The translations under genes and the position numbers were made by a program. Under the pieces are notes generated by a model. The model saw only the letters and a list, made by a program, of their open reading frames with translations, had not been told where the DNA came from and searched no databases. DNA of 30,163 nt from a virus: positions 24,037 to 54,199 of the IMG/VR virus record IMGVR_UViG_3300030060_006600, one strand, 5' to 3'. Shown here piece after piece: positions 3,401 to 29,827 of this stretch (the first letter of the stretch is position 1; every line of letters starts with the position of its first letter).

Positions 3401-6400
3401 ATGACAAAGATTCCATTTGTTGGGCTACACGCTCATTCTGTTGCTGGTTCTATTTTCGATGCACTTGGGTATCCTCAAGAGCATATGGACTTTGCCTATA
3501 AAAATGGTATGACTGCACTGGCCTTGACGGACCATGGAAACATGAATGGTTTGCCACACCAAGTTCTTCATGCCAAAAAGATGAAAAGCGAAGGCAAAGA
3601 CTTCAAACCTATCTTTGGCGTAGAAGCTTATTTTCTTCCATCTATTGAAGATTGGAAGAAAGACTATGAAGCTGCCAAGGAAGATAAGAAAAAGAAAAAG
3701 ACTCTAAGCAAAGATGTAACTGCTACAACGGTGGAGGACGAAGACGCATCCAAGAAGGCGGTGCGTAATATCTTAAATCGCCGCAGGCATCTTATCTTGC
3801 TGGCCCAGAATCAGGAAGGTTTGAACAATCTGTTTTCTTTGATTTCCGAGTCATTTGGTCCGGGCAATTATTATCGTTATCCCCGCGTAGATTATAAATT
3901 GTTAAAAAAGTATTCCAAAGGTGTGATAGGGGCTTCTGCTTGCTTGGGGGGCGTTTATGCGGGAAATTATTGGGAAAACCGTGAGGAGGGCAAAGAAGCT
4001 GTCCTAGATGCCATGCGAGAAACAACGCGCAATATGCTCGATATTTTCGGCGACCGATGGTACGGCGAGTTGCAATGGAATAACATCCCGGAACAACACG
4101 AGTTGAATCAATATATTATTCAGATGCATGATGAGTTTGGAATTGAGCTTATATCAACTTCCGACTCTCATTATCCTAATCCGGATGCTTGGAAGGATAG
4201 AGAATTATATAAAAGGTTGGGTTGGCTGGGTAAATCTAAGCCAAGTTGGGCCGGCGACGAGCTTCCCATAGATGTTGAAGAAATAGGTTATGAGCTTTTT
4301 CCTCGCAATGGTAATCAGATGTGGGAGGCTTATAAAAAATATTCTTCAGAGTGCTCTGTGTCCTATGACGATGACTTAGTTATGAAGTCAATCACAAACA
4401 CTCACGATATAGCACATACACGAATAGACGACTTTTTGCCAGATAGTGAAGTACGCCTTCCCGACTTTGTAATTCCCGCAGGTGAAACAGCAGATACGGC
4501 ATTAGAAAAGTTTTGCATCGAAGGGCTCCGAGAGAAGAATCTTCATACCGACACTGAATATACTGAAAGATTGCGTCAGGAATTAGAAGTCATCACTGAT
4601 CGAGGCTTTTCAAAATATTTCCTTACTATGAACCAGATTTGTCAAAAGGCCAATGGGCAAATGCTATCCGGCCCCGGAAGAGGTTCTGCAGCAGGTTCAT
4701 TAGTGGCATACGCCCTAGATATAACACAGGTTGATCCGCTAAAGTATGACCTTCAATTTTCTAGATTTATGCGCGCCGACGCAACCGATTATCCCGATAT
4801 CGATTATGATGTGGCAGATAGCATGGTCCTTAAGGAAATTTTGATTAAAGATTGGGGCGAAGATAAAGTCGCGCCAATCTCTAATTGGAATACCTTGCAG
4901 TTAAAGTCTCTAATTAAAGACATTTCAAAGTTTTATGGAATTGAATTTAAAGAAGTCAATACGGTAACCAGTGCGATGATGGGGGAAGCAATCGGCCCTG
5001 CTAAAAAGAAGCATGGCATTACTACTGGAATGTATACTCCCACATTCGAGGATACCATGGAATTCAGCGATACTTTGAAAAAGTTTCTGGCCAAATATCC
5101 ACATGTTAGAACTCATGTTGAAATGTTATATGGTCAGGTTAGATCTTGCTCGCGCCATGCTGGTGGTGTAGTGATCGGTGAAAATCTTAACAAGCGCATG
5201 CCATTGATTAACTCTGGAGGAGTAAGGCAGACTCCATGGTCCGAAGGCCAAAACGTTCGACACCTTGAGCCTATGGGGTTTATTAAATTTGATGTACTTG
5301 GCTTATCTACTCTAAAAATGATAGAAGGGGCAATTAGGCATATTCTTAAGCGCAATCACAATATTGAGAGTCCTGCTTTCAAGGATATCAAGGAATTTTA
5401 TGATAAAAATCTACACCCAGATGTCATTGACTTTAATGATCGCGATGTTTATAAAAATATTTTTCACGATGGTAAGTGGGCAGGCGTATTTCAATTCACA
5501 GAAGCCGGTGCACAAAAGTTTTGTCAGCAAGTTAAGCCAACAAACCTTATTGACTTGGCCGCCATCACTTCAATTTATCGACCCGGCCCCCTTGGGGCAG
5601 GCGTGCACAACAACTATGTAGATGCTCGCAAGAATCCACAAAGATTAAAATTTCTAAATGAAGACCATAGGTCAATCACTGAAGAGACTTATGGGTATCT
5701 TATTTTTCAAGAGCAGATCGCCGCTCTTGCTCATAAGTTGGGCAAAGATATTACTCTCGATGAGGGAAATATGCTTCGCAAGGTTCTAACAAAGAAGGGT
5801 ACCGGCAAAGAAGCAAAAGTAAAAAATGCTTTGCATGATAAATTTATTAAGGGATTTGTAGAAAGGGGTATGAAGAAAACTACTGGTGAGAGAATGTGGG
5901 AAGAATTCGAATATTTCTCCGGTTATGGTTTTAATAAATCACATGCAGTATCTTATTGTATCATTTCCTATCAATGCGCTTGGCTTCTTAATTATTATCA
6001 ATCAGAATGGTTGGCAGCTTTCTTGGATAAAGAGCCAGAATCCAGAAAAGAAAAAGCAATTAACATTGCAAAGTCTCTTGGATTCAATATTAAGGAGCTT
6101 GATATTAATTCATCAGGGCGCGTATGGGAAATTTCAGAAGATGGTCAAACATTGATTCAGCCCCTATCTTCTATTAAAGGCTTGGGCGATGCAGCCATTG
6201 ATCAAATCATGGCACACAGACCATTTAACAAGGTTGAGGATTTCTTATTTAATGAAAATATTATATATTCTAAATTGAATAAAAAGGCGTTAGATGTGCT
6301 TTGTCGCTCCGGAGCCATGAATTCTTTGGTAGATCACCGATTTTCGGGAGGAAAACATTTTTGGTCTGCTGTTTGTGTCGACCGACCCAGAAAGTTAAAA

Positions 6401-6820
6401 AATCTTGAAGAGAACATCGAGTCCTATTATGCAGAGGGAGATTTTACTGATGAAGAAAAGATTGGATATCTTGTTGAACTTACGGGGGTCTTTCCATTCA
6501 ACAGAGTTATGAAGCCCGAAGTTTATAAACAATTAAATGATCTTTTTATCCCTCCAATCGCCAATTATGACCCCACATTGTCAGAATGTGTATGGTTCAT
6601 TCCTCGCAAAGTGGTACCCAAAAAGACCAAAACAGGCAAAGACTACTGGATTATTGAAGTGATTGACGATACAAATAATCTGACAAAAATTAGGGTCTGG
6701 GGAGTGCAGACTTATGATAAGATTTTCGTCAATAAGCCATATCTTGCAAAGTTAGAACATAACGACAAGTGGGGATTTTCCACCAGAAGTTTAAGAAGAA
6801 ATTTTAAAGTTCTTGCTTGA
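3401..6820 (+). CDS. dnaE: DNA polymerase III alpha subunit (C-family, DnaE type)
   Basis: An 1139-aa replicative polymerase, close to full DnaE length. Order of domains: PHP domain (residues 5-290; H10-x-H12, D44-H45 in 'TDHGN', 'GVEAYF', 'SDSHY'), palm with 'GPGRGSAAGSLVAY' and the metal-binding 'PDIDYD' (D466, D468), 'CSRHAGGVVI', and the third catalytic Asp in 'KFDVLGL' (D631). Then 'YRPGPLGAG', 'FSGYGFNKSHAVSY', a helix-hairpin-helix region ('IKGLGDAAIDQIMAHRPF') and an OB-fold-like C-terminus ('KTKTGKDYWIIEVID'). All catalytic residues are kept, and the PHP metal ligands also look intact, so it may proofread by itself. No clamp loader or clamp is in the window. Its TGA stop lies within the -35 box of the next promoter. 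Confidence 0.96.
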   Translation: MTKIPFVGLHAHSVAGSIFDALGYPQEHMDFAYKNGMTALALTDHGNMNGLPHQVLHAKKMKSEGKDFKPIFGVEAYFLPSIEDWKKDYEAAKEDKKKKKTLSKDVTATTVEDEDASKKAVRNILNRRRHLILLAQNQEGLNNLFSLISESFGPGNYYRYPRVDYKLLKKYSKGVIGASACLGGVYAGNYWENREEGKEAVLDAMRETTRNMLDIFGDRWYGELQWNNIPEQHELNQYIIQMHDEFGIELISTSDSHYPNPDAWKDRELYKRLGWLGKSKPSWAGDELPIDVEEIGYELFPRNGNQMWEAYKKYSSECSVSYDDDLVMKSITNTHDIAHTRIDDFLPDSEVRLPDFVIPAGETADTALEKFCIEGLREKNLHTDTEYTERLRQELEVITDRGFSKYFLTMNQICQKANGQMLSGPGRGSAAGSLVAYALDITQVDPLKYDLQFSRFMRADATDYPDIDYDVADSMVLKEILIKDWGEDKVAPISNWNTLQLKSLIKDISKFYGIEFKEVNTVTSAMMGEAIGPAKKKHGITTGMYTPTFEDTMEFSDTLKKFLAKYPHVRTHVEMLYGQVRSCSRHAGGVVIGENLNKRMPLINSGGVRQTPWSEGQNVRHLEPMGFIKFDVLGLSTLKMIEGAIRHILKRNHNIESPAFKDIKEFYDKNLHPDVIDFNDRDVYKNIFHDGKWAGVFQFTEAGAQKFCQQVKPTNLIDLAAITSIYRPGPLGAGVHNNYVDARKNPQRLKFLNEDHRSITEETYGYLIFQEQIAALAHKLGKDITLDEGNMLRKVLTKKGTGKEAKVKNALHDKFIKGFVERGMKKTTGERMWEEFEYFSGYGFNKSHAVSYCIISYQCAWLLNYYQSEWLAAFLDKEPESRKEKAINIAKSLGFNIKELDINSSGRVWEISEDGQTLIQPLSSIKGLGDAAIDQIMAHRPFNKVEDFLFNENIIYSKLNKKALDVLCRSGAMNSLVDHRFSGGKHFWSAVCVDRPRKLKNLEENIESYYAEGDFTDEEKIGYLVELTGVFPFNRVMKPEVYKQLNDLFIPPIANYDPTLSECVWFIPRKVVPKKTKTGKDYWIIEVIDDTNNLTKIRVWGVQTYDKIFVNKPYLAKLEHNDKWGFSTRSLRRNFKVLA

Positions 6821-10691: not shown

Positions 10692-11719
10692 TTTTAGCCA
10701 CAGCCCTCTCCTATGACGACGTACTTTTGGTACCCAAATATTCTGATATTGTCTCCCGAAAAGAAGTATCGATCACTACAGAATTAGATTGCAATAGAAA
10801 GTTTGAGTTGCCAATTATTTCATCGCCCATGGACACCATCACCGAGGCGAAAATGGCAAATGCTATGCACTCTAAGGGTGGTTTAGGGGTAATCCACCGG
10901 TACAACTCCATCGAAGAGCAGACAAACCTAGTTCGCAGGGTGAAACACGAACACAAGGCTGCTGCTATAGGTATCTCTGGAGATTATTTGGAGAGGGCTG
11001 CGGCACTAATCGCAGCAGGCGCAAAAATCCTTTGCTTGGATGTAGCTCACGGTCACCACATTTTGATGAAAGAGGCCCTGATGAAGATGAAAACTCTTTA
11101 TGGTGATGACATTCATCTTATGGCGGGCAATGTAGCCACCAAACGGGGATTTGAAGACTTGTCAAAGTGGGGAGCAGATTCAATTAGATGCAACATCGGC
11201 GGCGGCTCAATCTGTTCCACTCGTATCCAGACTGGTCACGGCGTTCCGGGCCTGCACACGATATTAGATTGTATTCAAGCCGATATTGATAGAGATGTGA
11301 AAATAATTGCAGATGGTGGATTGAGAAACAGTGGGGATATAGTGAAGGCACTAGCAGCCGGCGCAGATTTTGTCATGGTTGGCTCACTTCTGGCAGGAAC
11401 ATTCGAGACACCGGGAGAAATAATTAATCACGGCACTCAAGCCGGAACAAAAAAGAAAGTATATAGAGGAATGGCCAGTAAAGAGGCCCAGTACGATTGG
11501 AGGGGGAGACACAGCTCAAATGAGGGCATCACCACCCACGTTCCTTATCGAGGAGATGTGGGGTCCATTTTGGATGAATTGGCAAATGGAATTAGAAGCG
11601 GGTTCTCTTATTCGGGTGCTAGAAACTTAACAGAGTTTCAGATAAATTCAGAATTCATTGTACAAACTCCATCAGGCCAAGTAGAAAGTAAGACCCACAT
11701 ACTAGATAGGCTAATTTAG
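10688..11719 (+). CDS. IMP dehydrogenase / GMP reductase family enzyme, no CBS domain
   Basis: A 343-aa TIM-barrel enzyme. Start is the ATG at 10688, overlapping the dUTPase stop (ATGA) with a GGAG site. The N-terminal half is IMPDH-like ('[12 protein letters not shown]', '[16 protein letters not shown]', 'LDVAHGH'). The catalytic loop is 'GGGSICSTR' (C176, T178), followed by '[31 protein letters not shown]' and 'YRGMAS'. It lacks the CBS pair, and its flap is short: '[16 protein letters not shown]' (E279) resembles the 'ASEGKTVEVP' of GMP reductases, and no Arg-Tyr dyad of IMPDH is seen. I therefore lean to GMP reductase (GMP to IMP), which would feed the phage PurA. IMP dehydrogenase activity cannot be excluded. 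Confidence 0.9.
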
Positions 11720-16380: not shown

Positions 16381-17955
16381 TTGACAAAGCATTTTAGTTC
16401 CGGCACTGGCATGAACGATAAAATCTTAAGTGGGGTAAATATTTTAGCAGACAATGTTGGATCAACTCTTGGCCCAAGAGGTCGAAATGTTATCTTGCAA
16501 GAGAAGGGTAAGCGACCTATCATTACGAAAGATGGCGTAACAGTGGCAGAGTTTATTGATTTGGAAGATCCAGTCGAAAACGCCGCAGTCCAGATTGTTA
16601 AGCAAGCAGCAGCCCAGACAAATATTGATGCGGGTGACGGCACAACTACTTCCACGGTATTGGCTAGAGAGATCCTAAATCGCGCACAGAAACATATTTC
16701 TGCGGGAGTACCACCAGTAGAGATACAGAGAGGCATTGAGAGGGCTGTAGATGCCATTGTAGAAAGGTTGGAGGGTATTTCCTCACCTATTAAGTCAGAA
16801 TCTGATATTGCCCATGTAGCAGGCATTTCTGCGAATAATGATAAGTTAATAGGAAATCTAATCGCCAAAGCTGTGACCGCAGCCGGAAAAGACGGCGCAA
16901 TTACTGTTGAGGAGGCTAAGTCTCATAAAACCTCTCTGGATTTGGTAGAGGGATTTAGAATGGATGCTGGGTATGCAGCAACCGCATTTATCACTGACGA
17001 ACGTCGACGCTCTGCGACCTATGATGATCCGATGATTTTAGTTACGGATGAAAAGATCGAACATGTGCAAGACATAATGAAGGTATTGGAACTTTCAGCC
17101 CGCGAAGCGAGGCCCTTAGTATTTGTATCTACGGAGGTCGAAGGACAGGCCCTAGCTGCAATGATTATGAATGCCATCAAGGGTACTTTAAAGGTTGCTG
17201 CCATCAAAGCACCATCGTATGGGGAAGAGAGGCAAAATATTTTGAAAGATTTGGCAGTTTCAATCGGTGCAACTTTCATAAGCAGGTCAGAGGGTAAAAA
17301 GATTCAAGATGTAAGGTTAACAGATTTTGGAAACGCAACTAGGATTGATATTACTAGGACCAATACTACTATCGTGGGTGGAAAAGGTGATTATGATTTA
17401 ATTGATAGAAGCATTTCGGACTTAAAAGAAGATTTATTGCAAGAGTCAGACCTGCTAGAGTGTGAAAAAATTCAAAGTAGAATCGCAAGACTAGCCAGCG
17501 GCATCGCAATTATTCGAGTAGGCGGCGCAACTGAAGTTGAAATGATTGAGAGAAAACATCGAATTGAGGATGCTCTTGAGGCTGTAAGGTCTGCACAAAT
17601 GAACGGAATTGTACCCGGCGGTGGAGTTGCATTGCTTAAGGTGACGAACAACCTGACGGTCGAATGTGAAAACGAAGACCAAGCTATTGGTGTTCAAATC
17701 ATCAAGCGCGCTGTTGAAGGCCCACTACGCCAAATGGCCCAAAACGCAGGATTATCTCCAGATATTATTTGTGAGTTAGTGAAGGGGTCTTGCCAAGAAA
17801 GTAATGTGGGCTATAATTTTGCAACCAACGAGGTGGAGGATCTTTTCGACGCAGGCGTTATCGACCCGGTTAAAGTCACTAAAACTTCTTTGCAGAATGC
17901 CGCATCTGTCGCAGGAACTTTAATTACTACAAACTACGCAGTTATTGAGAAATAG
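16381..17955 (+). CDS. groEL: GroEL chaperonin (group I, phage-encoded)
   Basis: A 524-aa ATP-driven folding chaperone. Start is TTG with AGAGGTG 5 bases upstream. Seen: 'GVNILADNVGSTLGPRGRNVIL', 'TKDGVTVAEFIDLEDPVENAAVQIVKQAA', nucleotide loop 'DAGDGTTTSTVLA', apical-domain 'APSYGEERQNILKDLAVSIGATFIS', 'VGGATEVEMIERKHRIEDALEA' (D397 is the ATP-hydrolysis Asp) and 'GIVPGGGVAL'. It lacks the C-terminal Gly-Gly-Met tail and stops after 'TLITTNYAVIEK'. No GroES gene is in the window, so it may use host GroES or work alone like the chaperonin of Pseudomonas phage EL. Likely clients are phage structural proteins. Confidence 0.96.
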   Translation: MTKHFSSGTGMNDKILSGVNILADNVGSTLGPRGRNVILQEKGKRPIITKDGVTVAEFIDLEDPVENAAVQIVKQAAAQTNIDAGDGTTTSTVLAREILNRAQKHISAGVPPVEIQRGIERAVDAIVERLEGISSPIKSESDIAHVAGISANNDKLIGNLIAKAVTAAGKDGAITVEEAKSHKTSLDLVEGFRMDAGYAATAFITDERRRSATYDDPMILVTDEKIEHVQDIMKVLELSAREARPLVFVSTEVEGQALAAMIMNAIKGTLKVAAIKAPSYGEERQNILKDLAVSIGATFISRSEGKKIQDVRLTDFGNATRIDITRTNTTIVGGKGDYDLIDRSISDLKEDLLQESDLLECEKIQSRIARLASGIAIIRVGGATEVEMIERKHRIEDALEAVRSAQMNGIVPGGGVALLKVTNNLTVECENEDQAIGVQIIKRAVEGPLRQMAQNAGLSPDIICELVKGSCQESNVGYNFATNEVEDLFDAGVIDPVKVTKTSLQNAASVAGTLITTNYAVIEK

Positions 17956-23667: not shown

Positions 23668-24585
23668 ATGAAAGAATGGAATGAATATAAAGAAATAGTT
23701 TCAGAGTTGGAAGATTTTCAAAAAAAGATGGCCAAGCTGAATGATCGCTCTAAAAAAAGATTATTAACAAAAGGCAAACAGTCAAACACGGCCCCCTATA
23801 CGGTCAAGCCTTCTTTAAAAAGGTCTAAGTCAGCACCACCCGGCTTTGGCGCAATTGGTGAGTCTGAAATTGATATTGTTCCGAACATTAAAGAAGACCT
23901 AGAGCGAAATATTTGGGAAAAAGATAACAAATTAAATGAAGAAATTTCCAAAAGATTAGTAAAGGTGGCCAAAGACTTTTACGATAAGCTAGATTTACCC
24001 GCACCAATTTTAGATATTACATTTACAGGCTCGATGGCCAACTATAATTGGACCGACATGTCGGATATTGATTTACATATTGTTGTTGATTATAAAGATA
24101 TAAATGAAGACCAAGAGCTTGTAAGAAATTACTTAATGGAAGCAAAATCAAATTGGAACCGAAATCACGATATTAGAATTAAAGGATATGAAGTGGAGAT
24201 ATATGTGCAGGACTCAAACGAGCCACACCACTCGACAGCCGTTTATTCTCTATTAAATGATGATTGGCTTATCAAACCACGTAAGAAGCGATTTGAGGCA
24301 AGTGAGGACGCAATTCGTCAAAAAGCTGACCACTTTATAAAGATGATAAATGATGCTGAAAAAAGAAGCGAAGAAGGTCGCCATGAAGAGGTTTATGGCG
24401 ACACAACTAGATTATCCGAAAAATTAAGAAATTATAGACAATCCGGTCTTGAAAAAGGCGGAGAATATTCTACAGAAAACTTAGTTTTTAAATATTTGAG
24501 AAATTCTGAAGAAATTGAGCGACTGTATGATTTAAAAAAACAATCTTATGATGCCATGATGTCAGTCAAAGAGGTGAAAAGGTAA
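23668..24585 (+). CDS. Nucleotidyltransferase (MNT/pol-beta-like) of phage type
   Basis: A 305-aa protein. I chose the ATG at 23668 over a GTG five codons upstream; the site before it (GCGAGG) is modest. The core 'ITFTGSMANYNWTDMSDIDLHIVVDY' is the nucleotidyltransferase signature GS...DxD (G121-S122, D133, D135), with a third acidic residue probably in 'GYEVEIYVQD'. Such enzymes transfer nucleotides to proteins, RNA or small molecules. The N-terminal 60 residues are basic and the C-terminal 90 are helical. A similar gene is frequent in marine T4-like phages, from memory. Target unknown; no antitoxin-like partner is visible. Confidence 0.86.
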   Translation: MKEWNEYKEIVSELEDFQKKMAKLNDRSKKRLLTKGKQSNTAPYTVKPSLKRSKSAPPGFGAIGESEIDIVPNIKEDLERNIWEKDNKLNEEISKRLVKVAKDFYDKLDLPAPILDITFTGSMANYNWTDMSDIDLHIVVDYKDINEDQELVRNYLMEAKSNWNRNHDIRIKGYEVEIYVQDSNEPHHSTAVYSLLNDDWLIKPRKKRFEASEDAIRQKADHFIKMINDAEKRSEEGRHEEVYGDTTRLSEKLRNYRQSGLEKGGEYSTENLVFKYLRNSEEIERLYDLKKQSYDAMMSVKEVKR

Positions 24586-26017: not shown

Positions 26018-26145
26018 TGCAGCATTTAACTAACTGTCATGGAGAGTGGACTGCCTTAGTCGCACTAGCGGGATACTTTTCTTTTAGTGCCCTGTGGGTT
26101 AAATTAAGATGGGAATCCTTTAAGGGGTCAAAGAATGAGGGTTGA
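26017..26145 (+). CDS. 42-aa small membrane protein
   Basis: ATG overlaps the stop of the zinc-ribbon gene (TAATG) and its TGA overlaps the next gene. 'WTALVALAGYFSFSALWVKLRW' is a single membrane helix, and the tail is basic ('KGSKNEG'). Tight overlap on both sides supports it as a real gene. Unknown role. Confidence 0.55.
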   Translation: MQHLTNCHGEWTALVALAGYFSFSALWVKLRWESFKGSKNEG

Positions 26146-26374
26146 AGATATCCAAACGGGCATGATTTTAAATTGGCAATCAACCACATGGCCCGACAAA
26201 ACCAGCCGATGGATTGTCTTAGAGCAAATAGAAAACCTACACGTAGAGGGTAGAAGATTTGAAATATTCTGTATTAAGTCTGACTTGAATTCGGCCCCTA
26301 CTATAAATCAATCAACAACTTACGTTTTTCATTCTGAAAACATCCACCGATTCAGTGTTCATTCCCAAATTTAA
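26135..26374 (+). CDS. Small 'GM' barrel protein
   Basis: A 79-aa protein with an AAGGGG site. 'VEDIQTGMILNWQSTTWPDKTSRWIVLEQIENLHVEGRRFEIFCIKSDLN' has the 'xxG[DM]xI' opening and strand pattern of the small-barrel group seen in this window. Starts inside the preceding 42-aa gene. Function unknown. Confidence 0.66.
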   Translation: MRVEDIQTGMILNWQSTTWPDKTSRWIVLEQIENLHVEGRRFEIFCIKSDLNSAPTINQSTTYVFHSENIHRFSVHSQI

Positions 26375-26393
26375 AAATAATTTCATTTTTTTC

Positions 26394-26422
26394 TTGACAA
26401 CCTTAAACAAAATGTGTATAAT
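26394..26422 (+). promoter_or_regulatory. Sigma70-type promoter, extended -10
   Basis: TTGACA (26394-26399) and TATAAT (26417-26422) with a 17-base spacer and TGTG just before the -10, as in the three-copy element but without the extra upstream hexamers. Confidence 0.75.
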
Positions 26423-26450
26423 ATATCATAACTTAAACAATGGAGCACAA

Positions 26451-26603
26451 ATGCTTAATGACCCATCACTTGCAGACCTTTACAATCAAACCTCTGAAGA
26501 ATATTACGATGGTCTTTCCTCGTTCGATGATGAAGAAATTGATATGGATGACGAGTGTCCAGACTGGATTAAGGAGCAGCTAGATGAAGAACTTCCATTT
26601 TAA
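26451..26603 (+). CDS. 50-aa acidic protein
   Basis: ATG 28 bases after the -10 with TGGAGC upstream. Strongly acidic ('YYDGLSSFDDEEIDMDDECPDWIKEQLDEELPF'). First gene of its promoter; the next gene begins inside its end. No motif recognised. Confidence 0.62.
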   Translation: MLNDPSLADLYNQTSEEYYDGLSSFDDEEIDMDDECPDWIKEQLDEELPF

Positions 26604-26823
26604 TAATGGGGATAAGTTGAAAATTTCTTTCAACGATAAAGCGTCATCTCGAACAAAAGGCCGTGTAAAAGACCACGGCCCTTTATTTGTATTTTTTAAA
26701 GAAACCAAGTCATTTCGAGGTGCCGGACTCCTATCCTCTCGCGAGTGTGTTCTAGTCGGTTCTCTATCTACAGGATGGGATGGCTGGCTACCCTGTGATG
26801 AAATAGCGATTATAAAAGAGTGA
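26584..26823 (+). CDS. Small 'GD' barrel protein
   Basis: A 79-aa protein whose ATG lies 7 bases after an AAGGAG site inside the previous gene. 'HFNNGDKLKISFNDKASSRTKGRVKDHGPLFVFFK' continues the GD-type small-barrel theme. A terminator-like hairpin lies within the coding sequence (26656-26697). Overlaps the next gene by 4 nt. Confidence 0.68.
   Translation: MKNFHFNNGDKLKISFNDKASSRTKGRVKDHGPLFVFFKETKSFRGAGLLSSRECVLVGSLSTGWDGWLPCDEIAIIKE
26656..26697 (+). terminator. Possible intragenic terminator/attenuator hairpin
   Basis: GGCCGTG (26659-26665) and CACGGCC (26674-26680) form a 7-bp stem with an 8-base loop, flanked upstream by A-tract and downstream by a T-rich run. It sits inside the coding region of the 79-aa gene, so it may be partial attenuation or coincidence. 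Confidence 0.35.
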
Positions 26824-27068
26824 GGCCCCTAGTAGAGGTACCCTATTATCCCGGCTGCTTATTGAAAGAATATTGCAACCGACTAAGAGACAATCATCCA
26901 ATCCTACAGGGGCTGTTTCTCATAATTAGTATGGACGAGTTTGATGTCAAGGCTATATCTTTATATGATAAGGATGGATATTTTAAAATTAATGAATCGG
27001 TAGGAATTTCTCACGAAGATTTACACAGAAAGCAAAATAGTTTTTTATGGGTAATACAGGAGCCTTAA
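26820..27068 (+). CDS. 82-aa protein, hypothetical
   Basis: GTG start (GTGA overlap with the previous TGA). The first 20 residues contain Pro, Cys and Tyr; the rest is mixed ('LQGLFLIISMDEFDVKAISLYDKDGYFKINESVGISHEDLHRK'). No known motif. Coupled to its neighbours by overlap. Function unknown. Confidence 0.62.
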   Translation: MRPLVEVPYYPGCLLKEYCNRLRDNHPILQGLFLIISMDEFDVKAISLYDKDGYFKINESVGISHEDLHRKQNSFLWVIQEP

Positions 27069-27317
27069 ATGATTTTGACGCAGGGTGATATTATAGATGT
27101 GATCGGCGCATTGACTCACTTCTCTCGTCATATAGTTTTAGGATCTCACTATGATGACGAGTATGAGGAAAAGGTATACTCTACTTACGCCATATATATA
27201 GCCGATGAATCAGATAAAGATAGATTAAACACAGTTTGGAAAATGCCACTAGATAGTTATGTGGAGAGAGATGAAGAAAACATAGTGATAATAATAAAGG
27301 AGCAATATGAAAAATAA
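27069..27317 (+). CDS. Small 'GD' barrel protein
   Basis: An 82-aa protein starting one base after the previous stop, with AGGAG in its end. Starts 'MILTQGDIIDVIGALTHFSRHIVLGSHYDDEYEEKVYSTYAIYIADE' and ends acidic. Same 'GDII' opening as others in the window. Overlaps the next gene by 11 nt. Confidence 0.68.
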   Translation: MILTQGDIIDVIGALTHFSRHIVLGSHYDDEYEEKVYSTYAIYIADESDKDRLNTVWKMPLDSYVERDEENIVIIIKEQYEK

Positions 27318-27450: not shown

Positions 27451-27644
27451 AATTAAACCAACTACAGGCTTTTGAATTTGATAACGGTCAGGATTTATTA
27501 TCAGGGCCAGTCGGTACTTGGTTTGAAGCTCCAGCCAATCAGATACTTCCTCCAGAAGATAAGCCAAATAGAGAAAAACTATTATTTGTTAGGACACAAT
27601 CCTGTGGTCCGGGATGGTATCAAATACATCCTAAAATCTCTTGA
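27438..27644 (+). CDS. 68-aa protein, hypothetical
   Basis: ATG after AAGAAGGGAA inside the preceding gene. The sequence is beta-like with a conserved-looking 'GPVGTWFEAPANQILPPEDKP' and 'GPGWYQIHP'. Its TGA stop forms part of the first TTGACA of promoter copy B. Function unknown. Confidence 0.62.
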   Translation: MAPIKLNQLQAFEFDNGQDLLSGPVGTWFEAPANQILPPEDKPNREKLLFVRTQSCGPGWYQIHPKIS

Positions 27645-27695
27645 CATTCTCTTGACAACTTTGTTGTAGACAAGACCTTTTCAAACGTGTATAAT
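27641..27695 (+). promoter_or_regulatory. Repeated promoter element, copy B
   Basis: TTGACA 27641 and 27652, TAGACA 27667, TATAAT 27690-27695, with the same spacing as copies A and C. Precedes the 199-aa gene at 27722. Confidence 0.8.
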
Positions 27696-27721
27696 GTATA
27701 TACAAATCAGGGAGATATTAC

Positions 27722-28321
27722 ATGTCTGATAAGCAAGCCGAAAGACTTCAAAAACTCGTCGAGAATCCAAATCTTAATAACTGGGAAAAGAACTTTATTG
27801 CCTCTGTAAATTACTATTTTCAAAAGCATGGTCGTGTTTCCAATAAGCAATGGGCAACGGTCCAAAAGGTGGAAGCAAATTACTCTCCCGAAGTTATCGC
27901 CCAACGTCAGGCATGGAATGATGACTTCACCGATGAAATGCGCCAGAAATGGGAGATAGCTATGGATTACTATGAAAATAATCCTCCCTATTTTCAAGAT
28001 TTGGTCACGCGATATCGCTTATCCCCCGAAATGATTCCAACCTCAAAGATGTACAATAAGATTGTTGAGAACAAATACGTTCGGAATGTTATCGCCACCA
28101 TTCAATCAGAGCCTCTCTACGAGGTGGGCTGCTTGGTTCAAGTGCGTCGAACCGCGAAAGGGCCACACTATCGCTTTCGTGACTGCATCGCGCTGGTAGT
28201 GGATAACTCTGGACCTGTAACTTCAGCCACCAAGGGCGCAAAGACCTATTCTATTCTACCATTCGGTGAAACCGCACCTGTAAAGATTCAAGAGCGATGG
28301 CTAAAAAGGAAGAGGGGCTAA
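27722..28321 (+). CDS. 199-aa two-part protein, possible SH3-like C-terminus
   Basis: ATG after a GGGAG site, first gene of copy B. Residues 1-60 are helical with an 'NWEKNFIASVNYYFQKHGRVSNKQW' segment that recalls small phage proteins of unknown role. Residues 130-199 are beta-rich ('EVGCLVQVRRTAKGPHYRFRDCIALVVDNSGPVTSATKGAKTYSILPFG') and could be a KOW/SH3-like nucleic-acid binder. The C-terminus is basic ('RWLKRKRG'). No firm family. Confidence 0.8.
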   Translation: MSDKQAERLQKLVENPNLNNWEKNFIASVNYYFQKHGRVSNKQWATVQKVEANYSPEVIAQRQAWNDDFTDEMRQKWEIAMDYYENNPPYFQDLVTRYRLSPEMIPTSKMYNKIVENKYVRNVIATIQSEPLYEVGCLVQVRRTAKGPHYRFRDCIALVVDNSGPVTSATKGAKTYSILPFGETAPVKIQERWLKRKRG

Positions 28322-28323
28322 TC

Positions 28324-28605
28324 ATGGCTAGTATAGAACAATATGACGATATTATGATTAACACTAACCCCAAGGTTCTATGTCCCTTCACACTAAAGGA
28401 GGGCATGAATATTTTCAGCGTTTTTAAAGCCCTTCCTTTTAAAGTGCATAACCGCTGGCTTGTTCTCAAAATTACCGAAGAACAGTGGGGAAGGCCTAAA
28501 GCCTTTTGTGTGTTACTGTATGGACACCGAGCATACACGCCGGGAGAAACAACAAAGACGATAGATTTATGCTCATTGCCTAGAGATTTGTGGAGGATGT
28601 GTTAG
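28324..28605 (+). CDS. 93-aa hypothetical protein
   Basis: I chose the ATG at 28324 (GAGGGG 7 bases upstream) over an in-frame ATG at 28297 that overlaps the preceding gene. 'NPKVLCPFTLKEGMNIFSVFKALPFKVHNRWLVLKITEEQWGRPKAFCVLLYGHRAYTPG' has a small-barrel look. The following 355 bases contain no coding sequence. Confidence 0.7.
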   Translation: MASIEQYDDIMINTNPKVLCPFTLKEGMNIFSVFKALPFKVHNRWLVLKITEEQWGRPKAFCVLLYGHRAYTPGETTKTIDLCSLPRDLWRMC

Positions 28606-28627
28606 TGTTAAACTTCTGAATATTGGG

Positions 28628-28862
28628 CTATCAAGGTTAAAAGTGCACCATGGAAAATCCAGACCAATATCTGACAGGTCTGGCTCCTGATTCTAAGGGC
28701 GAAGGTTGAGCTTCACAGGGTGACGCAATATATGTTTTCAATGCTCATTATCAAGGTGACAGCAGTTGGCTGTATCAATAAAGAAATTTCAGATTAGGAT
28801 GGCGGGAATCCGAGTAAACCGCCCACGTCGCTGGATGAACAGTTCCCGCCTCACCTTGATAG
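28628..28862 (+). ncRNA. Candidate structured RNA with alternative closing strands
   Basis: A 235-base stretch in the longest gene-free region (28606-28960). Closing stem CTATCAAGGT (28628-28637) with ACCTTGATAG (28853-28862), 10 perfect pairs. A second 11-bp partner for the same 3' strand lies inside: TATCAAGGTGA (28749-28759) with TCACCTTGATA (28851-28861). Further hairpins: CCAGACC/GGTCTGG (28659-28683), TGAGC/GCTCA (28707-28747), ACAGC/GCTGT (28759-28773) and GGCGGGAA/TTCCCGCC (28801-28850). No known RNA family is recognised, no promoter is evident just upstream and no T-tract terminator follows. Strand is inferred from gene direction. Confidence 0.5.
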
Positions 28863-28875
28863 TCCATTAATTCTC

Positions 28876-28930
28876 TTGACATTCTCTTGACAACTTTTAT
28901 GTAGACACGATAAGAAAAAACGTGTATAAT
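28876..28930 (+). promoter_or_regulatory. Repeated promoter element, copy C
   Basis: TTGACA 28876 and 28887, TAGACA 28902, TATAAT 28925-28930, same spacing as copies A and B, 14 bases after the structured-RNA candidate. Drives the zinc-knuckle gene at 28961. Confidence 0.8.
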
Positions 28931-28960
28931 GTATATGCAATTAAGACAGGAGCCTATCAC

Positions 28961-29827
28961 ATGCCTATCGTTCATAAATCATACAAAAAAACCGTTCGTT
29001 GTGGATACTGCCGTCAGCCGGGACACAATAAATCATCTTGCCCGCAATACGCCGCCCGTATCGAGGAAATTCGCGCAGAATCCGGTGATGACCATTATGC
29101 AGTCGCAGCTTACGATTACAAAAAGAACAAGCGCAAGGCAGCAGGCAAAAATCGTAGCTGCTCCTATTGTGGAGAGAAGGGACACAACCGGAAGACCTGT
29201 AACGCTCTCAAATCTGACATGTTCGCGGTAAAAGCTAAGAACACTGAATACCGCAAGGGCTTATTCAACGCGATGGTAAATAATGGTATTTTTACAGGTG
29301 CTATCGTTAAGAGCACAAACAATACCAGACTGATAGATACGAAGGACTATCAAGCTGGCCGCTGGCAGATTCCTATGGTAATCACTCGTGTGGTGTGGGA
29401 GCATCTTAATATTTGGGAAACCGAATTCCGCTATTATAGCAGCACTATGGGCGAACGCAGCCCATTCGAGGCGAAGCCTCTGGACGAGCTTACCACTCCT
29501 TACCCCCATAGAATGGGATTTCCGCAAGACTATGATTTAGTATGGAACAAGATGACTTCGGACATCTTTGAGAAATATACAGCAGGTCTGGACGACTGGT
29601 ATGGCAGGTTTAAGCACACTTATTTTTGTACCGTGGTATCTCCGGTTAATGCAGAAAAGCCACCGCTTGGTTGGTTGACTTGCGACGATACCGAGAGCCA
29701 AAAGAGTCTAAAAGAGTTCTTCAAAAAGCGAACTTCTAAGGACATTTATCGCTCGCACACGAAGGGCTTGACCCGCGATGAAGAGTTTGAATTGAGACAG
29801 AAAGAAATGGAAGAAGGAAGCCTATAA
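28961..29827 (+). CDS. Double CCHC zinc-knuckle protein
   Basis: A 288-aa protein starting at ATG 28961 after ACAGGAG; an upstream GTG is inside the promoter and unlikely. Two perfect zinc knuckles, C14-x2-C17-x4-H22-x4-C27 and C67-x2-C70-x4-H75-x4-C80, are of the type that binds single-stranded RNA or DNA in retroviral Gag and some eukaryotic proteins. The 200-residue remainder ('YWGR'-type aromatic-rich, 'KSLKEFFKKRTSKDIYRS') is not recognised. It follows directly on the structured-RNA candidate. Rare in phages as a pair, so a role in RNA handling is suggested but untested. Confidence 0.86.
   Translation: MPIVHKSYKKTVRCGYCRQPGHNKSSCPQYAARIEEIRAESGDDHYAVAAYDYKKNKRKAAGKNRSCSYCGEKGHNRKTCNALKSDMFAVKAKNTEYRKGLFNAMVNNGIFTGAIVKSTNNTRLIDTKDYQAGRWQIPMVITRVVWEHLNIWETEFRYYSSTMGERSPFEAKPLDELTTPYPHRMGFPQDYDLVWNKMTSDIFEKYTAGLDDWYGRFKHTYFCTVVSPVNAEKPPLGWLTCDDTESQKSLKEFFKKRTSKDIYRSHTKGLTRDEEFELRQKEMEEGSL

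Follow-up and report, generated by a model that had tools for sequence, protein, structure and literature searches.

A conserved pseudoknotted fold at phage gene junctions and a candidate family of noncoding RNA

A gene-poor interval of an uncultivated phage genome carries one copy of a structured RNA, of which 14 distinct examples (five of type A, two of type B and seven of type C) were recognized in 12 distinct phage records. Judged from comparison of the copies, it is very likely that a fold including a pseudoknot has been conserved at the level of RNA. The reading that we prefer, with a probability of roughly 0.55, is that these sequences form a new family of noncoding RNA in phages, one that originates at operon 3′ ends and probably acts in trans.

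The copy that started the analysis lies in a stretch of 30,163 nucleotides, referred to here as the window, which comprises positions 24037–54199 of a 60,679-base virus record (L011). The window encodes a DnaE-like polymerase (polymerase III alpha; 3401–6820), whose closest phage match is about 31% identical, and a GroEL-like chaperonin (16381–17955). The original prediction had described the interval around the RNA as free of genes, and indeed no credible long gene runs across 28606–28960. Elsewhere in the record, at window positions 26135–27317, are runs of short open reading frames of about 65–100 residues each, alike in make-up and many of them behind a promoter cassette. Translations at L011 46–60 and 1225–1365 start with or include short runs of X; the record thus has short runs of unread bases, and small genes may be hidden or broken.

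Fold and covariation

All members share an outer stem, P1, the hairpin P2, a conserved joint resembling AUAGnAAG, and the hairpin P9 (Table 1). The loop of P2 forms a covarying pseudoknot with a strand that lies immediately 5′ of the joint. Type A copies possess in addition P3 and a variable insert, and the length of the RNA ranges across the family from 115 to 255 nt. By reading of the sequences, 13 of the 14 P9 loops contain UNNRA, a motif that may form a T-loop.

Table 1. Parts of the type A RNA in the window and the cassette that adjoins it
Feature	Positions	Strand	Basis and remarks
Whole structured RNA, type A copy, P1 to P1′	28624–28866	+	~243 nt; R1 match; homologous blocks in G001, G003, G008, G020
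P1 5′ strand (closing stem)	28624–28637	+	Partner 28853–28866; sequence differs yet pairs in 14/14 members
P2 5′ strand CCAGACC	28659–28665	+	Covarying hairpin; 7/7 pairs kept in 5/5 type A; 3 pairs changed on both sides
Pseudoknot strand AUCUGA in P2 loop	28669–28674	+	Partner UCAGAU 28789–28794
P2 3′ strand GGUCUGG	28677–28683	+	As for P2 5′ strand
P3 5′ strand, opens type A block CUCYYGAUUCUAAGG	28684–28691	+	Partner 28750–28757; 90% of cells paired (type A)
P3 3′ strand, within second TATCAAGGT copy	28750–28757	+	Conserved AUUAYCRnGG
Pseudoknot 3′ strand UCAGAU	28789–28794	+	Alignment of members
Conserved joint UAGGAU (family AUAGnAAG)	28795–28800	+	Alignment of members
P9 hairpin GGCGG-(GAAUCCGAGUAAA)-CCGCC; loop UNNRA and AG..AA	28801–28823	+	Covarying stem; loop kept in types A, B, C
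Insert between P9 and P1′	28824–28852	+	Present in window and G001; absent in G003, G008, G020
P1 3′ strand	28853–28866	+	Pairs with P1 5′ strand
Promoter cassette directly 3′ of RNA	28870–28935	+	Two CTCTTGACA words, then TAGACA-17-TATAAT at 28902–28930

Of the single pieces of evidence, the replacement of P1 in every copy is, in our judgment, the most convincing. The outer stem has 14–24 pairs in the relatives and a different sequence in each; its strands in the five type A copies are GGGCUAUCAAGGU/ACCUUGAUAGUCC, AUGACCGAGGAGGU/ACCUCCUCGGUCAU (part of a longer stem), UGACCGAGGAGGUC/GACCUCCUCGGUCA, UUCCAAGUAGUAUUUC/GAAAUACUACUUGGAA and AUGGCCAAGUGGGGCC/GGCCCCACUUGGUCAU. The letters of the pseudoknot also differ among relatives and still pair, as in CUAUAUA/UAUGUAG, CUGUAUA/UAUGCAG, CUGGUUU/AAACCAG and GUCUCU/AGAGGC. 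In P3, one U-A to C-G double change is seen within type A, and the window copy pairs at six of eight positions.

Counts of compensatory change, in which sequences rather than independent events are tallied and the five rows per alignment are a small sample, were made for two types of the RNA. In the type A core (P2, pseudoknot, P3, P8 and P9), 92.4% of cells are paired, and 10 pairs show double changes as against 4.8 in shuffles, a number reached in none of 500 shuffles; sliding the partner strands by 1–3 columns lowers pairing to 36–40%. In type C, 99.4% of cells are paired and there are nine double-change pairs versus 4.8 in shuffles (again 0/500), with at most 56% paired after the same slide. 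The type A count includes pseudoknot columns that are partly misaligned, the register of the window copy being slightly off that of the others; by eye its two strands form a perfect six-pair match. Because the compensatory changes exceed those in every shuffle and the pairing collapses when strands are displaced, the original prediction of a structured RNA is borne out. G-U pairs outnumber A-C mismatches on the plus strand by 19 to 4 in the two counted alignments, an excess that favors RNA of that strand.

Folding energies are less informative for the window copy. Taken as a single sequence it folds slightly better than shuffles, with an unremarkable z of −1.2 to −1.6, whereas the blocks of its relatives fold far better than shuffles (z of −3.8 to −6.8). 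The case for an RNA is therefore comparative and not energetic.

Members of the family

Exact-pattern and single-protein scans around the locus found no relatives. The entry point was a search with DnaE, which gave 27 loci, several of them about 82% identical, and the records of these DnaE relatives encode, in synteny, homologues of P0002 and P0004, the two flanking proteins. A homologous block lies between the two genes in G001, G003 and G008; G020, reached by an alignment-guided scan, has the block at another gene junction. The block measures about 215–255 nt in these four related phages, and the same records emerged when the entire viral collection was scanned by pattern. The RNA is not universal, for no copy was seen in at least one close relative: in G014, which has the same flanking genes and promoter as G020, it is cleanly missing between the stop codon and the promoter cassette.

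A covariance model, R1, was built from the five type A copies, the window copy included, and matches 28619–28871 in the window. With this model, short blocks were recognized in L070 and L071, and G020 and G001 proved to have a second block each; these two records both carry one type A and one type B copy. L152 (identical to L156), L155, L159 and L161 came from a pattern scan of viral sequences for the conserved joint and the P9 loop, and G029 from a second covariance model, R2, built on type C. R1, trained on type A only, matches type C copies over their full length with E-values of 2e-9, 3e-6 and 4e-5, and in one case over the 3′ core only (E = 0.002). The sole match of R2, trained on type C only, in the record of the window is the RNA region, with a weak E-value of 0.16 and the 3′ core correctly aligned. 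Through models trained independently, types A and C support each other, well in the direction from R1 to C and only weakly from R2 to A. Further weak R1 matches, L104 and L105, stand outside the family count, and L104 was not accepted.

Membership of type B, with two copies (G020:18944–19142 and G001 near 11610; L106, L107), is the least secure. These are assigned to the family on the basis of a common order of P1, P2, pseudoknot, joint and P9 and of an R1 match to the G020 copy (E = 4e-6). They are flanked by a gene of 123–126 residues and a short downstream gene, of 80 residues in G020.

The Rfam comparison that had been proposed as a check gave no gathering match in the window (Rfam 15). 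Scans of the window block and of type A, B and C members to E = 10 returned nothing over the RNA except one sub-threshold match, on the opposite strand of L070, and no Rfam ribozyme matched that would point to a self-cleaving ribozyme. Searches with blastn against phages and plasmids gave no usable match, the block being absent from isolate phages, and the open-licence papers searched contain no description of the RNA. Two matches in a pattern scan of GTDB lack the structure and are attributed to chance, as is a match of type B to MT835469, where the fold is missing from the stretch concerned. A group I intron-like arrangement in type A, with P3 crossed by CUAUCU/AGAUAG, was rejected: the 5′ strand is missing in types B and C, the pairing is broken in the window, and Rfam offers no match. 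Mimicry of a CRISPR repeat, considered from the loop word GUAUA, was dropped because the window loop differs.

Gene ends, promoters and the preferred reading

The RNA is found at four gene junctions, and the downstream gene is not constant between them. In 11 of 14 cases it lies 3′ of a gene and directly 5′ of a promoter-like site, which separates it from the next gene in 11 of the 12 copies of types A and C; the type A RNA of G001 is followed by a small gene and only then by a promoter cassette. Type C copies, where the surroundings could be read, sit between genes for a MoxR-like AAA ATPase and a VWA/DUF2201 metallopeptidase. The cassette, in which two CTCTTGACA words 11 nt apart precede TAGACA-17-TATAAT, occurs at eight places in the record, including the one adjoining the RNA and another at window 27638–27700, and is found in relatives too. 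The doubled word could be a candidate activator site of the phage.

No convincing promoter-like site was seen just upstream of any type A or C copy. By consensus matching, the strong plus-strand site 5′ of the window copy precedes P0002, at 27667, and downstream none follows until 28902; the block is thus predicted to be the likely 3′ end of a P0002–P0001 transcript. The type B copy of G020 has its own promoter-like sequence, TTGACG-17-TATACT, again a consensus match. U-rich tails are seen in type C (UUUUUCUUU), in the type B copy of G001 as a U-run, and in the type A copy of G020 (AUUUUAUUUAU at the end of P1). A good U-tract is missing from the window copy and from the type B copy of G020. 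No intrinsic terminator, that is, a GC-rich short-loop hairpin followed by a U-run, is present in window 27600–29000; P1 of the window copy encloses more than 200 nt, and the U-tract belongs to other copies only.

The downstream protein P0004 (window 28961–29827) has two CCHC zinc knuckles. A relative of it is encoded in 11 of the 12 distinct RNA-bearing phages (G032 being the exception) and also in G014, which has no RNA. The genes are linked, and since linkage may explain the pattern we do not count this co-occurrence as evidence of partnership.

In the reading that we prefer, types A and C would be transcribed as the final part of the upstream operon, as the missing upstream promoter-like site suggests. 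P1, together with the U-rich tract of many copies, would end the transcript just before the next promoter, and the folded RNA would then be released or protected. It may act in trans, either as a stable RNA or within an RNA–protein complex, and the conserved elements (P2 loop, joint and P9 loop) would bind its partner. The four junctions, the two copies each in G001 and G020 and the clean absence from G014 show the RNA to be separable from its neighbors. A fuller version of the proposal, to which we would commit ourselves only tentatively, is that the family is a class of phage noncoding RNA, not described before, with a role in trans during infection. It might, for example, sequester a host or phage protein through the pseudoknot and P9 loop as a counter-defense decoy or ribonucleoprotein scaffold, and it would be transferred as a separable module from one gene junction to another.

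That types A and C sit where genes end would be expected equally of an element that acts purely in cis. P1 might be a terminator with its loop enlarged to a pseudoknotted cap, which would block nucleases and insulate the upstream operon from the promoter that follows. Most copies of type A and all those of type C do lie between a gene end and a promoter-like site, many copies combine P1 with a U-rich tail, and the type C U-run abuts the TTTACY −35 box of the promoter-like site that follows. Nevertheless we consider this explanation less likely, as the same junction in G014 manages without the RNA and has no substitute hairpin, some copies lack the U-tract, and neither a terminator nor a cap accounts for the conserved unpaired core of types A, B and C.

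The RNA is best described as a new family within structured phage noncoding RNA and not as a new category, since new RNA families are regularly found. GOLLD, ROOL and OLE RNAs are far larger than the family RNA. Like it, they are structured natural RNAs, with roles that are not or only partly known (PMC12286853), but the family RNA is without an Rfam 15 match even at E = 10. Type III toxin–antitoxin RNAs offer another comparison. ToxI consists of pseudoknot units of 36 nt in an array, which assembles with ToxN (PMC12373285), and the pseudo-ToxI mimic of phage PhiTE is an example of a phage RNA directed in trans against a system of the host (PMC3475682). The family RNA resembles these in being phage-borne and pseudoknotted; unlike ToxI it is one non-repeated fold of 115–255 nt, with no adjoining toxin gene recognized and no Rfam match. 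A repeat search of the region found pairs of 9 and 11 nt only, and not the tandem array of short pseudoknots that characterizes type III antitoxin RNAs. The AbiF-associated RNA (RF03085; RCd22) is also phage-borne, about 130 nt long with a terminator at its end, and the RF03085 motifs are short hairpins upstream of an abiF gene, two of them in RCd22 (PMC12373285). The family RNA differs in that it has no cmscan match to RF03085 and no tested neighbor matches an Abi family.

Competing pairings, other readings and implications

The nine-letter word TATCAAGGT does occur on the plus strand at 28629 and 28749, with its complement at 28853, as first reported; the whole 60.7-kb record holds one further copy only, at genome position 1904, and three of the words fall within about 230 nt. 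The outer stem 28629/28853 has the perfect 10 bp claimed for it, within 17-nt arms that are 88% complementary and form 14 pairs including one G-U, a stem that appeared in 0 of 300 shuffles of the flanks. The rival stem, 28749–28759 with 28851–28861, likewise has its perfect 11 bp. Of the two closing stems proposed, the outer one covaries in every relative, whereas the rival is confined to the window phage: its longest match is 13 pairs in the window versus six in each of the four relatives. The counterpart of the 28749 strand in those relatives, AUUAYCRnGG, forms the 3′ side of helix P3 by pairing with CUCYYGAU. The rival stem is best read, from these alignments, as a by-product of a resemblance between the P1 letters of the window and the conserved P3 strand. 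The window offers another competing pairing, between GGCGGGAA and UUCCCGCC in the insert, which would oppose P9; the insert is missing in three relatives.

The notion that the two stems are mutually exclusive states of a switch is accordingly not supported by the comparison. A riboswitch or attenuator acting on the downstream gene is improbable on wider grounds too. The competing pairings of the window copy, and the likeness of P1 with a U-tract in some members to a transcription-termination switch, are what such a device might present. Nonetheless, the competing stem is not conserved by covariation, and the RNA does not form the 5′ leader of a regulated gene: a promoter-like site follows it in the window and most relatives (in 11 of 12 type A and C copies), and the downstream gene varies with the junction. 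The RNA shares a compact pseudoknot and a conserved core with preQ1 and other pseudoknotted riboswitches (PMC11625349), from which the same promoter-like sites, the varied downstream genes and the lack of an Rfam match set it apart.

A function as DNA, whether as an origin, packaging site or set of repressor operators, or as a mobile element with terminal inverted repeats, is improbable as well. It would suit the perfect terminal inverted repeat of 23–24 bp in G020, the clean empty site in G014 and the occupation of several gene junctions. The inverted repeats, however, covary and differ in every copy, covariation extends to the internal hairpins and pseudoknot, the G-U excess is the strand bias expected of RNA, and each record has one or two copies with no adjoining transposase recognized. 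An eroded or tiny protein-coding gene is scarcely credible: codon scores are mildly positive in one plus-strand frame over 28620–28770 and several copies contain short open reading frames, but stops break the frames, which are not common to relatives (those of G003 and G008 stop where G020 and G001 continue in another frame), and indel lengths are not multiples of three.

The catalogue of structured RNAs from uncultivated phages is poor, and the 14 divergent copies assembled here provide a pseudoknotted fold that can be tested, with covarying pairs that open the way to direct experiments by compensatory mutation. If the RNA acts in cis, it would be an unusually elaborate 3′-end element. If it acts in trans, as we prefer to think, it would represent a new tool in the interaction of phage and host.
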